A stretch of 64,000 nt of DNA from Primorskyibacter flagellatus (lineage in GTDB: Bacteria; Pseudomonadota; Alphaproteobacteria; Rhodobacterales; Rhodobacteraceae). The translations under genes and the position numbers were made by a program. The stretch spans positions 310,001-374,000 of the forward strand of contig NZ_BMFJ01000001.1 in the NCBI RefSeq assembly GCF_014638275.1, given 5' to 3'. Of the stretch, positions 49,801 to 53,232 are shown in pieces. Numbering within the stretch: position 1 is the stretch's first letter; every line of letters starts with the position of its first letter. The notes beneath the pieces were generated by a model, which was given only the letters and a program-made list of their open reading frames with translations, searched no databases and was not told where the DNA came from.

Positions 49801-50589
49801 ATGCTGTCCTATCAACACCTCTATCACGCGGGGAACCCGGCGGATGTTCACAAGCACGCGCTTCTGGCGTGGATGCTGGCGCGGCTCACCGAGAAACCGA
49901 AACCGCTGAGCTATGTCGAAACCCATGCGGGGCGGGGGTTGTATGACCTGTCGGCCCCGGAGGCGCTGAAGACAGGAGAGGCGGCGGCGGGCGTGGGACG
50001 GATGCTGGCGCGTTTTGCGCCGGATCATCCGTACCGGCAGGCGGTGGAGCAGGTGCGGGCGGAACACGGCGCGACGGCCTATCCGGGATCGCCCCTGATC
50101 GCGGCGACGCTGCTGCGTCAGGAGGACCGGGTAACGCTGGCCGATCTGCATCCGCAGGAGCACGGAGCGCTGCATGCCGCTCTCGGAGGCAGGGCTCAGG
50201 TGCGGCAGATGGACGGGTTCGAACTGGCGCTGTCGGTCTGCCCTCCGACGCCTCGGCGGGGGCTGATGCTGATCGACCCGAGTTACGAGGTGAAGGCGGA
50301 CTACGAAACCATCCCGAAGGTCATCGCGCAATTGCACCGGGCCTGGAATGTCGGGGTCATTGTGCTCTGGTATCCGATCCTGACGGACGGGCGGCACAGG
50401 CGTATGGTTGAGGCGCTGGAAGGGGCCGGGATGGCGAAGATGCTGCGCCACGAGGTCGGTTTTCCCCCGGTGCGCCCGGGGCACGGAATGGTGGGGTCCG
50501 GGCTGTACGTGGTCAATGCGCCGTTCGGACTTGAGGAAGAGGCGGCGCGGGTCGGGGCGCTGTTCGCCGGGTTGTTACCCTCCTCGTGA
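49801..50589 (+). CDS. rlmJ: 23S rRNA (adenine2030-N6)-methyltransferase
   Basis: Methylates A2030 of 23S rRNA with SAM. The 262-residue product opens MLSYQHLYHAGNPADVHKHALLAWML, diagnostic for RlmJ; VETHAGRGLYDL near residue 40 binds SAM and LIDPSYEVKADY near 158 is the catalytic (N/D)PP(Y/F)-type motif, here with Ser in place of the second Pro. HGMVGSGLYVVNAPFGL is the usual C-terminal segment. Monocistronic, divergent from mreB. Confidence 0.95.
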   Translation: MLSYQHLYHAGNPADVHKHALLAWMLARLTEKPKPLSYVETHAGRGLYDLSAPEALKTGEAAAGVGRMLARFAPDHPYRQAVEQVRAEHGATAYPGSPLIAATLLRQEDRVTLADLHPQEHGALHAALGGRAQVRQMDGFELALSVCPPTPRRGLMLIDPSYEVKADYETIPKVIAQLHRAWNVGVIVLWYPILTDGRHRRMVEALEGAGMAKMLRHEVGFPPVRPGHGMVGSGLYVVNAPFGLEEEAARVGALFAGLLPSS

Positions 50590-50695: not shown

Positions 50696-52267
<1,572 letters not shown>

Positions 52268-52296
52268 GGGGTTCTCTTTCTTAATCCAGATGCCAT

Positions 52297-52349
52297 GGCG
52301 CGAGACGGCTGTCCTCTGAGCGGTCGCGCCGATCCGGCACGCTCAGAGG
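52297..52349 (-). promoter_or_regulatory. leuA leader: two mutually exclusive hairpins
   Basis: On the minus strand CCTCTGAGCG (52349-52340) pairs perfectly with CGCTCAGAGG (52322-52313). GGCGCGA (52330-52324), in the loop of that hairpin, pairs perfectly with TCGCGCC (52303-52297), while one arm of the first lies in the loop of the second, so both cannot form as simple stems. The TGA of the leader peptide is within the first stem. No T run follows the second stem, so a Rho-independent terminator is not evident; masking of translation or Rho action are options. Confidence 0.65.
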
Positions 52350-52426
52350 CGGATTAGGAGTAGGCGCAGAGCAGCGGCGCGCGAGATGCGCGGGTCCGTC
52401 GATGCGATATGCCCTTTGAGTTCCAT
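52343..52426 (-). CDS. leucine-rich leader peptide of leuA
   Basis: A 27-codon frame ahead of leuA: begins MELKGH and ends AAALRLLLIRL then TGA. Six of 27 residues are Leu, five of them in the last eight positions, and two use CTA, which should be a rare codon in DNA this GC-rich. The last Leu codon and stop lie within the base of an RNA stem. No ribosome site precedes the ATG, but a -10-like TATATC ends 6 bases upstream, so the mRNA would start at or next to this ATG (leaderless). Rhizobial trpL is a known example of a leaderless attenuator peptide. By analogy, ribosome stalling at Leu codons would switch the downstream hairpins. Confidence 0.72.
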   Translation of the reverse strand: MELKGHIASTDPRISRAAALRLLLIRL

Positions 52427-52432
52427 GAGGGC

Positions 52433-52461
52433 GATATAGCGCGGCCCGCGCGGTTTGGAAA
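52433..52461 (-). promoter_or_regulatory. candidate promoter of the leuA leader
   Basis: Minus strand: TTTCCA (52461-52456), 17-base spacer, TATATC (52438-52433), then 6 bases to the leader ATG at 52426. Spacing fits a housekeeping promoter and places the transcript start at about the A of the leader ATG. Confidence 0.5.
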
Positions 52462-52469
52462 CCCGTGAA

Positions 52470-52520
52470 ACATGCTGCGTGGCAGCATGTGCCTCCGGCG
52501 GGGATATTTAGGAAAACCAA
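52470..52520 (+). repeat. hairpin plus CTCCGGCGGG-ATATTT repeat, copy 2
   Basis: ACATGCTGC/GCAGCATGT (52470-52478, 52482-52490) is a perfect stem, immediately followed by GCCTCCGGCGGGGATATTTA and GGAAAACCAA. It lies between the divergent leuA leader and the SDR gene. The other long copies of this repeat family also carry a hairpin directly ahead of the CTCCGGCGGG-like core. Confidence 0.75.
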
Positions 52521-52531
52521 AGAGCGTGGAT

Positions 52532-52560
52532 TGATCCGGGCGGGCCGGGCGCCACGTATC
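52532..52560 (+). promoter_or_regulatory. candidate ECF promoter of SDR-cryB, leaderless
   Basis: TGATCC (52532-52537) is a perfect RpoE-type -35; CGTATC (52555-52560) follows after 17 bases, one more than in the classical TGATCC-N16-CGTA arrangement. A start about 7 bases later would fall on the SDR ATG (52567), which indeed lacks a ribosome site. In Rhodobacter, photolyase-family genes belong to the singlet-oxygen response, which suits this reading. Confidence 0.45.
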
Positions 52561-52566
52561 CCTGAC

Positions 52567-53232
52567 ATGAAACGGGCTTTGATCATCGGGGCGAGCGGGG
52601 CGGTCGGCGGCGCGGTGGCGTCGCGGCTGGAGGATCAGGGTTCCGCTGTCGTGCGGCTGTCCCGGTCGCGGGACGGTCTGGACCTTACGCATGAGGCATC
52701 GGTCGAGAAGGTGCTTGGTGGGATCGCGGGGCCATTCGACCTGGTGCTGGTGGCTTCCGGAGCGTTGGAGATCGACGGGTCGGGGCCGGAGAAGGCCCTG
52801 CGCGAAGTGTCGTCGCAGGCGATGCTGGCGCAGTTCGCGCTGAACGCGGTTGGTCCGGCGCTGGTGCTGCGCCACGCGGCACGGTTGCTGCCGCGGGATC
52901 GGCGCTCGGTCTGCGCCGTGTTGACCGCGAGGGTGGGATCGATCGGGGACAACAGGCTGGGCGGGTGGTATTCCTACCGCGCGGCCAAGGCGGCGGCGAA
53001 CCAGATCGTGCGGACAGCGGCGGTCGAGGTGGCGCGGACGCATGCGCAGGCCTGCGTCGTCGCGCTACATCCGGGCACCGTGCGGTCGGCGCTGACGGAA
53101 CGGTATCTGGGGCGTCACCCGGCCGTCGCGCCCGAGGCGGCGGCGGAAAACCTGCTTTCGGTGATCGGCGGGCTGACGGCGCAGGACAGCGGCGGGTTCT
53201 TCGACTGGCGGGGCGCGCGGGTGGAATGGTGA
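52567..53232 (+). CDS. short-chain dehydrogenase/reductase
   Basis: A 221-residue SDR. The nucleotide loop is ALIIGASGAVGGAVASRL (residues 4-21) and the catalytic Tyr/Lys lie in WYSYRAAKAA near 138-147; ALHPGTVRSALTERYLG is the usual post-active-site loop. It resembles the CsgA/YciK-type SDRs often found beside photolyase genes. The stop overlaps the photolyase start by 7 bases, so they are coupled. The start is ATG 52567; no Shine-Dalgarno is visible. Substrate unknown. Confidence 0.86.
   Translation: MKRALIIGASGAVGGAVASRLEDQGSAVVRLSRSRDGLDLTHEASVEKVLGGIAGPFDLVLVASGALEIDGSGPEKALREVSSQAMLAQFALNAVGPALVLRHAARLLPRDRRSVCAVLTARVGSIGDNRLGGWYSYRAAKAAANQIVRTAAVEVARTHAQACVVALHPGTVRSALTERYLGRHPAVAPEAAAENLLSVIGGLTAQDSGGFFDWRGARVEW

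Follow-up and report, generated by a model that had tools for sequence, protein, structure and literature searches.

A conserved leucine-codon leader upstream of leuA in Alphaproteobacteria and its predicted pairing with the leuA initiation region: a candidate translational attenuator

The leuL attenuator of gammaproteobacteria (Leu_leader, Rfam family RF00512) combines Leu codons in a leader peptide with competing hairpins in front of leu genes. In translational attenuation of the ermC type, a ribosome stalled on the leader, in this case by an antibiotic, frees the Shine-Dalgarno sequence of the next gene. Upstream of leuA in actinobacteria lies the LEU element, in which a Leu-codon run inside a leader ORF is joined by a base stem to the leuA Shine-Dalgarno sequence; two inner helices are depicted either as a pseudoknot or as an alternative hairpin, and the description includes no terminator (PMC1262725). 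Seliverstov et al. (2005) judged attenuation unlikely on the basis of Streptomyces coelicolor mutants and favoured a binding protein: mutations in the leuA leader of this organism reportedly had some effect inconsistent with classical attenuation, and the paper concluded that mutation of the Leu codons was without influence on regulation (PMC1262725). The leuA leader of Streptomyces lividans, MRFGLLLLSCRGEGL, is leaderless and shows no typical Rho-independent terminator (PMC8079986), four consecutive Leu codons occur in the presumed leuA leader of Corynebacterium glutamicum (PMC4046766), and the trpL (rnTrpL) leader peptide of Sinorhizobium meliloti is translated from a leaderless mRNA that starts at its AUG (PMC10117765). 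A search of open-licence papers by title and by the beginning of the abstract returned no account of an alphaproteobacterial leuA leader. Lopatovskaya 2010 and Vitreschak 2004 may describe attenuators of alphaproteobacterial leuA, and the priority of the element presented here is thus unsure.

The window, that is, the whole 64 kb stretch of DNA that was analysed, carries leuA on its minus strand, and the leader discussed below starts with an ATG located 159 nt 5' of the leuA ATG (Table 1). The leuA product shares 75.8% identity with a Phaeobacter inhibens protein annotated as 2-isopropylmalate synthase. The same genome encodes a second LeuA-like protein (32% identity), which was considered as a second leuA and is probably not one; the annotated records among its best matches are citramalate synthases. 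Downstream of leuA, an open frame at 49801-50589 (+) has the place and orientation of rlmJ, the 23S rRNA methyltransferase gene found beside leuA in P. inhibens. At the P. inhibens locus L261 (NZ_CP081282.1), leuA, its leader and rlmJ are found on a 17.9 kb record labelled as a plasmid. An initial annotation of the stretch had read the region upstream of leuA as a leaderless leucine attenuator, and the leader frame, the Leu cluster and the perfect arms that it listed were all confirmed at the positions given in Table 1. It had missed two elements: helix C, formed by the Leu-codon stretch and RNA lying between helix B and leuA, and the inner stem that joins GTGCC (52340-52336) to GGCGC (52330-52326).

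Table 1. Features read upstream of leuA, with coordinates in the window.
Feature	Coordinates	Strand	Remarks
-35-like TTTCCA	52456..52461	(-)	read from the sequence; 17 nt 5' of the -10
-10-like TATATC	52433..52438	(-)	ends 6 nt before the leader ATG
Leader ORF, 27 codons, MELKGHIASTDPRISRAAALRLLLIRL	52343..52426	(-)	ATG 52426-52424, TGA 52345-52343; ending LRLLLIRL
Leu codons CTA CTC CTA	52355..52363	(-)	codons -6, -5 and -4 counted from the stop
Helix C, 5' strand TAATCC	52351..52356	(-)	overlaps Leu codon -4
Helix A, 5' strand CCTCTGAGCG	52340..52349	(-)	spans the leader stop codon
Inner-stem strand GTGCC	52336..52340	(-)	partner of GGCGC (52330-52326) in the loop of A; competes for the B 5' strand
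Helix B, 5' strand GGCGCGA	52324..52330	(-)	7 bp with TCGCGCC, perfect
Helix A, 3' strand CGCTCAGAGG	52313..52322	(-)	10 bp with CCTCTGAGCG, perfect
Helix B, 3' strand TCGCGCC	52297..52303	(-)	no U-run after
Helix C, 3' strand GGATTA	52282..52287	(-)	14 nt 5' of the leuA ATG; followed by purine-rich AGAAAGAGAA
leuA, 2-isopropylmalate synthase, 523 aa	50696..52267	(-)	annotation of a relative

Within the genus (Pseudooceanicola, the window's own genome included), a full-length leuA was found in 21 of 22 genomes, the remaining one being 66% complete. All 21 loci preserve the leader frame with its Leu cluster as well as both pairs of arms, which is more than chance would give; their leaders invariably end in LL(I/T)RL, and CTCCTAA, CGCCTCTGAGC and GTGCC are without change. 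A further 110 loci were gathered (80 named and 30 from a family search, partly overlapping), of which 109 had a readable leuA start, and a mechanical rule recognized a Leu-rich leader frame in 104 of these 109. In a stricter pass, six of these loci lacked a suitable frame. L086 carries a short version of the leader (ALLLTRP) and L093 a degenerate one, nothing was seen upstream of leuA when L098 was read for a leader, and in L036, L060 and L068 leuA follows close behind another frame and the leader is absent, so that these three provide natural comparisons for leader function. Once identical stretches had been merged, as the same places had entered through several collections, 117 distinct loci having the leader were retained; they are still unequally related, and the counts take in all of them. 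The fourth codon before the stop (codon -4) encodes Leu without exception in the 117 loci, 115 of which use CTT or CTA there; these two represent only 8.0% and 0.7%, respectively, of the 4,276 Leu codons counted in the corresponding leuA genes. The same codon is CTT or CTA in 37 of 38 loci outside the window's family. The string LLLLSC, shared with the leuA leader of S. lividans, is found in 7 of the 117 leaders. By this comparison, the presence of a real and conserved Leu-rich leader before leuA is confirmed.

A -10 element was searched for in the interval 4-11 nt 5' of the leader ATG, and a well-scoring one was found in 91 of 116 loci, in every case at 6-9 nt before the ATG (12, 48, 29 and 2 loci, respectively); the other 25, which include five Rhizobiales loci, score poorly. 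The -10 sequences of Pseudooceanicola often lack the final T (TATAGA, TAAAGA, TATATC). The -35-like region, CTTTTCATT, is conserved as CTTT(T)C(A/C)TT, unlike TTGACA, and T occupies two of its positions in 91 and 86, respectively, of the 91 loci with a good -10. When matches to the promoter plus an ATG were sought regardless of frame in 112 loci (the five Rhizobiales loci being excluded), 93 of the 94 matches were in frame with the Leu codons and open up to them; 21 of the loci were without a match, and three matches were counted in 37,951 nt of control stretches. With a stricter -10 pattern, 54 of the 117 loci gave matches, every one of them in frame and open, and the other two frames of the same stretch were open in 30 of 108 cases. 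Therefore, the promoter spacing together with the in-frame ATG indicates a probable transcript start at the leader ATG or adjacent to it, and the leaderless character claimed in the initial annotation is, from promoter spacing only, supported as probable. Since a scan of the window from 52200 to 52700 with an E. coli-type sigma-70 consensus, at a threshold of 9 matches out of 12, found no promoter, the claim of a promoter rests on conservation. Outside the window's family, a similar pattern revealed such a promoter in only 5 of 38 loci, and leaderlessness thus seems to be a trait of the window's group and not of the whole class. Folding energy was also unremarkable (z of -1.28 for 162 nt and of -2.03 for 231 nt) and was discarded as weak evidence for the element. 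Because neither the promoter consensus nor the folding energy stands out, the evidence for the element is its conservation. As a separate observation, leader codons 6-7 are His-Ile, nearly always written CATATC, in 57 of 111 leaders (52406-52411 (-) in the window), at a place that overlaps none of the three helices A, B and C; of 67 instances of CATAT near the leader start, 60 share the frame of the ATG.

Helices A and B were examined in an alignment of 100 of the 117 loci, which omits by name L087, L100 and the Rhizobiales loci L105 and L107-L110, and the rest for exceeding 85% identity. Helix A is paired in 99.0% of the cells and helix B in 83.8%, compared with just 33-55% for versions of both helices slid along the sequence. 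Changes on both sides of a pair were observed at three pairs of helix A and two of helix B, and they occupy 52 cells, against 17.8 in shuffled alignments (none of 500 shuffles was as high); the number of pairs involved, five, is less striking, being equalled or exceeded in 31 of 500 shuffles and ranging from 3 to 7 in slid versions. On these grounds, both helices are supported by covariation. The inner stem of A, formed by GTGCC and GGYGC, is paired in 95.8% of the cells in the same loci and, because GGYGC doubles as the B 5' strand, helix A with its inner stem would compete with helix B. The notion of two mutually exclusive stems, as formulated in the initial annotation, thus holds as regards competition for shared sequence; strict exclusion is less sure, as the order of the strands (A1-B1-A2-B2, with B1 inside the loop of A) is that of a pseudoknot and could let A and B coexist. 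In 39 of the 100 loci, the A2-B2 loop, which in a full pseudoknot would need to stretch across A, measures only 4-6 nt, and such a pseudoknot is therefore unlikely there.

Helix C takes a variety of forms: TCCTTAGCC with GGCTAAGGA (L051 and L136), TTCTTAGCC with GGCTAAGAA (L079), TCCTAAGCC with GGCTTAGGA (L054 and L075), CTGCTAAGC with GCTTAGCAG (L119) and, in several Pseudooceanicola, CTCCTAA with TTAGGAG, the window using another register, TAATCC with GGATTA. Five of the 117 loci did not match the pattern for the 3' strand of A, and in the other 112 the mean score of helix C was 16.48, compared with 13.24 after swapping the 3' regions between species (sd 0.23, maximum of 200 swaps 13.86), a control for any Leu codons resembling an anti-Shine-Dalgarno sequence, and with 13.02 (sd 0.21) when the 3' regions were shuffled. 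Helices of at least 7 bp occur in 62 of the 112 loci (24.4 after swapping, with a maximum of 32 in 200 swaps), and helix C is short, of 6 bp or fewer, in 50. Covariation was tested in loci whose helix is fixed by adjacent bases. At codon -5, the wobble base forms a Watson-Crick pair with its counterpart in 30 of 40 loci, T-A, C-G, G-C and A-T all being used, against a mean of 14.3 under permutation, and none of 20,000 permutations reached the observed number; at codon -4, the wobble base is so paired in 35 of 41 (25.5 permuted; p 5e-5). Helix C positions -8 (30 of 46 versus 18.5), -7 (35 of 40 versus 24.3) and -6 (20 of 41 versus 14.5; p 0.007) also covary, and the covariation is not significant for two of the seven positions tested, -9 (p 0.09) and -5 (p 0.26). 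The wobble changes are synonymous and, therefore, what is kept is the RNA and not the peptide. The type of pair changes at least 10 times on the LeuA tree (30 paired loci), and an independent-pairs test, which is underpowered for having few supported branches, gave 1.6 the same way and 0.1 the other for three starred pairs.

Outside the family, 85 loci were considered (25 given and 60 fetched), taken with some gaps from the upper part of a listing in which 270 of 385 genomes matched and therefore not a random sample; the leuA start could be read in 84 of them, a loose rule that admits some plainly chance cases gave a Leu-rich frame in 56, a CCCCT or CCTCT stop context was present in 38, and 36 loci were used for helix C. 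Their mean score was 16.69, against 14.08 after swapping (sd 0.41, maximum 15.08), and the Leu run and helix C persist there even though the remaining sequence has changed. In about 10 of the 36, helix C lies on or at the Shine-Dalgarno sequence, as in L254 (GCTCCTTAT/ATAAGGAGC), L216 (TCCTTATCC/GGATAAGGA), L210, L180, L201, L200, L229, L239, L245 and L247. Within the family it coincides with the Shine-Dalgarno sequence itself in Paracoccus (L042, where the 13 bp stop 8 nt short of the ATG), L096, L116 and L092; in the 62 loci with at least 7 bp, the 3' strand of C ends at a median of 18 nt before the leuA start (37 at 14-22 nt, 8 within 11 nt and 17 further away), the start being the ATG nearest to a protein motif, a mechanical choice that misplaces it or leaves it in doubt in a few loci (helix C at distances of 73-191 nt). 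Several of the counts depend on such mechanical choices, of the helix as well as of the start codon. It could be argued that helix C is a by-product without function, given that CTCCTT Leu codons are inherently complementary to any AAGGAG and that swapped pairs still score 13-14. However, own pairs beat swapped pairs in both data sets, the wobble bases covary and, in the 37 loci at 14-22 nt, helix C is placed 5' of the usual Shine-Dalgarno position, and such an origin was considered very improbable. The core of the element, expressed as an RNA model, was detected in 21 of 385 genomes of the class at an E value of 0.01 or better under strict filters, and 14 of the 16 matches outside the family had a leuA start in the same locus, with a convincing leader frame in part of them; in the window's genome, the match was convincing at leuA only, the next one having an E value of 0.14. 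The sequences compared thus indicate that the leader arrangement is recurrent in many Alphaproteobacteria, Paracoccus denitrificans and P. inhibens being among the species that have it.

Comparison among loci shows the frame, the promoter spacing and helices A, B and C to be conserved, and we infer, with a probability of roughly 0.65, that the leuA leader is a leucine-sensing translational attenuator, an estimate that covers the sensing, its direction and the translational level. In this model, translation would begin on an mRNA whose 5' end is at or beside the leader ATG, and the late Leu codons of the leader, one of them almost always the rare CTA or CTT, would double as one strand of helix C, whose other strand would be located just 5' of the leuA Shine-Dalgarno sequence or be identical to it. 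When leucine is plentiful, the ribosome would run through the leader, end at the UGA inside A and depart, and helix C would close over or beside the initiation region (off). When charged tRNA-Leu is scarce, the ribosome would halt on the Leu codons and cover the 5' strand of C, hairpin A would fold ahead of it and the leuA initiation region would be open (on). Helix B would be favoured over A when the ribosome sits on the leader stop codon. The attenuator of the initial annotation is therefore retained in its Leu-codon leader, its competing stems and its lack of an intrinsic terminator, and is amended in that its key element, helix C, had been missed; for the acting element, helix C, running between the Leu codons and the leuA upstream stretch, is likelier than the second stem proposed there.

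Predicted folds in which a ribosome-sized mask covered the Leu codons are consistent with this switch. In 107 loci, the mean openness of the C 3' strand went from 0.18 to 0.53 (up in 91, down in 8), a low starting value that is partly built in, as this strand was picked for its pairing. Openness within a fixed window directly 5' of the leuA start rose in 75 and fell in 16 of the 107 loci (narrower window and threshold), and in a wider fixed window it increased from 0.49 to 0.59, with changes above 0.05 upwards in 65 of 106 loci and downwards in 4; control masks placed upstream gave 12-17 loci up and 10-13 down in the same wider window. Length limits removed 5 or 6 more loci from these folds (hence 107 and 106). 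For the locus of the window itself, the predicted openness of the initiation region changed from 0.52 to 0.72 with the Leu mask. A mask on the stop codon shifted the fold to helix B (mean 0.75, versus 0.07 when free), and it also opened the initiation region in 60 of 106 loci (down in 4); the off state would therefore require that the ribosome be released. This requirement is the model's weakest joint, and the role of helix B its least certain part.

The behaviour of helix B bears on a different proposal, namely, that transcription is attenuated in the classical manner or through Rho, B or the untranslated stretch bringing about termination after full translation of the leader and A preventing it upon stalling. 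In this respect, A and B compete as an antiterminator and a terminator would, the stop-codon mask moves the fold to B, and in the same bacterial order a uORF attenuator with an intrinsic terminator has been predicted before cysS (PMC8632094). The absence of a U-run noted in the initial annotation was borne out, however, as the 10 nt following B never contain more than four T in the 107 loci (12 have four); between the leader stop and leuA, a run of four T was present in 13 of 112 loci and one of five in a single locus, and a scan of the minus strand of the window from 52200 to 52700 detected no terminator-like site. An intrinsic terminator after B or C was consequently rejected for lack of a U-run. 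Termination would, in addition, leave helix C and the covariation of the wobble bases unexplained, and the likely action of C on leuA favours control of translation initiation over Rho. Attenuation of transcription was thus regarded as unlikely.

A regulatory protein that binds the leader RNA, the leader peptide being incidental or merely coupling translation, might also be invoked, as it was for the actinobacterial LEU element (PMC1262725), and it would account for the very strong conservation of primary sequence around CTCTGAGCGTGCC. Against this possibility, the frame is tied to the promoter (93 of 94 matches), Leu at codon -4 is universal (117 of 117) and, outside the family, the Leu run and helix C survive sequence change elsewhere; taken together, a protein-based mechanism was judged quite unlikely. 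Translational attenuation by a leucine-sensing ribosome has counting against it the shortness of helix C in 50 of the 112 loci, its placement 5' of the usual Shine-Dalgarno position in 37 of the 62 longer cases, and the S. coelicolor mutants (PMC1262725). Nevertheless, mutations in the Leu codons of that leader would also break the base stem, and we infer that the result need not contradict sensing by the ribosome.

It may be proposed, at even odds, that in Alphaproteobacteria at large leucine synthesis is controlled by a translational switch specific for the amino acid, with the Leu codons themselves as its anti-Shine-Dalgarno strand, and that the same reasoning extends to the actinobacterial LEU element. 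If this were true, sensor and lock would be the same nucleotides, CUC CUU being both Leu-Leu and the complement of AAGGAG. The loss of sensor and lock together would then explain why earlier Leu-codon mutants did not fit classical attenuation. The leader would also represent an amino-acid-specific attenuator acting on translation throughout the class and matching an element whose mechanism was left open in 2005.

The proposed leuA switch resembles that of ermC in that the initiation region of the next gene is freed, stalling in ermC being induced by an antibiotic. It differs from Leu_leader in the lack of a terminator U-run, and no Rfam family, Leu_leader included, matched the 64 kb window at gathering score; a search of 401 bases with E values up to 10 returned one miRNA family only, at 9.5. 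In common with the tryptophan attenuator of trpE in S. meliloti, trpL (PMC10117765), it has an alphaproteobacterial leader peptide and, probably in the case of leuA, a leaderless mRNA, and it is set apart by having no terminator and by a helix reaching the initiation region of the next gene. The uORFC-8-2 motif of cysS belongs to the same order, Rhodobacterales, and shares amino-acid codons within a uORF and presumed stalling, but it concerns cysteine, and an intrinsic terminator followed by a U-run closes its consensus (PMC8632094). The closest known system appears to be the actinobacterial LEU element, likened here through its published description, with which the leuA leader would share both logic and architecture. 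The two differ in phylum and in the sequence of the inner helices, and the base stem is often displaced upstream in Alphaproteobacteria. A stem of this kind is supported in the loci compared here, being placed on the Shine-Dalgarno sequence in Paracoccus and in about 10 loci outside the family but 14 nt before the start in the window. Both systems possess a leader with a run of Leu codons before leuA (21 of 21 loci in the genus, with Leu at codon -4 in 117 of 117 loci) and two inner helices in the order A1-B1-A2-B2, each of which exhibits changes on both sides in the alphaproteobacterial loci.
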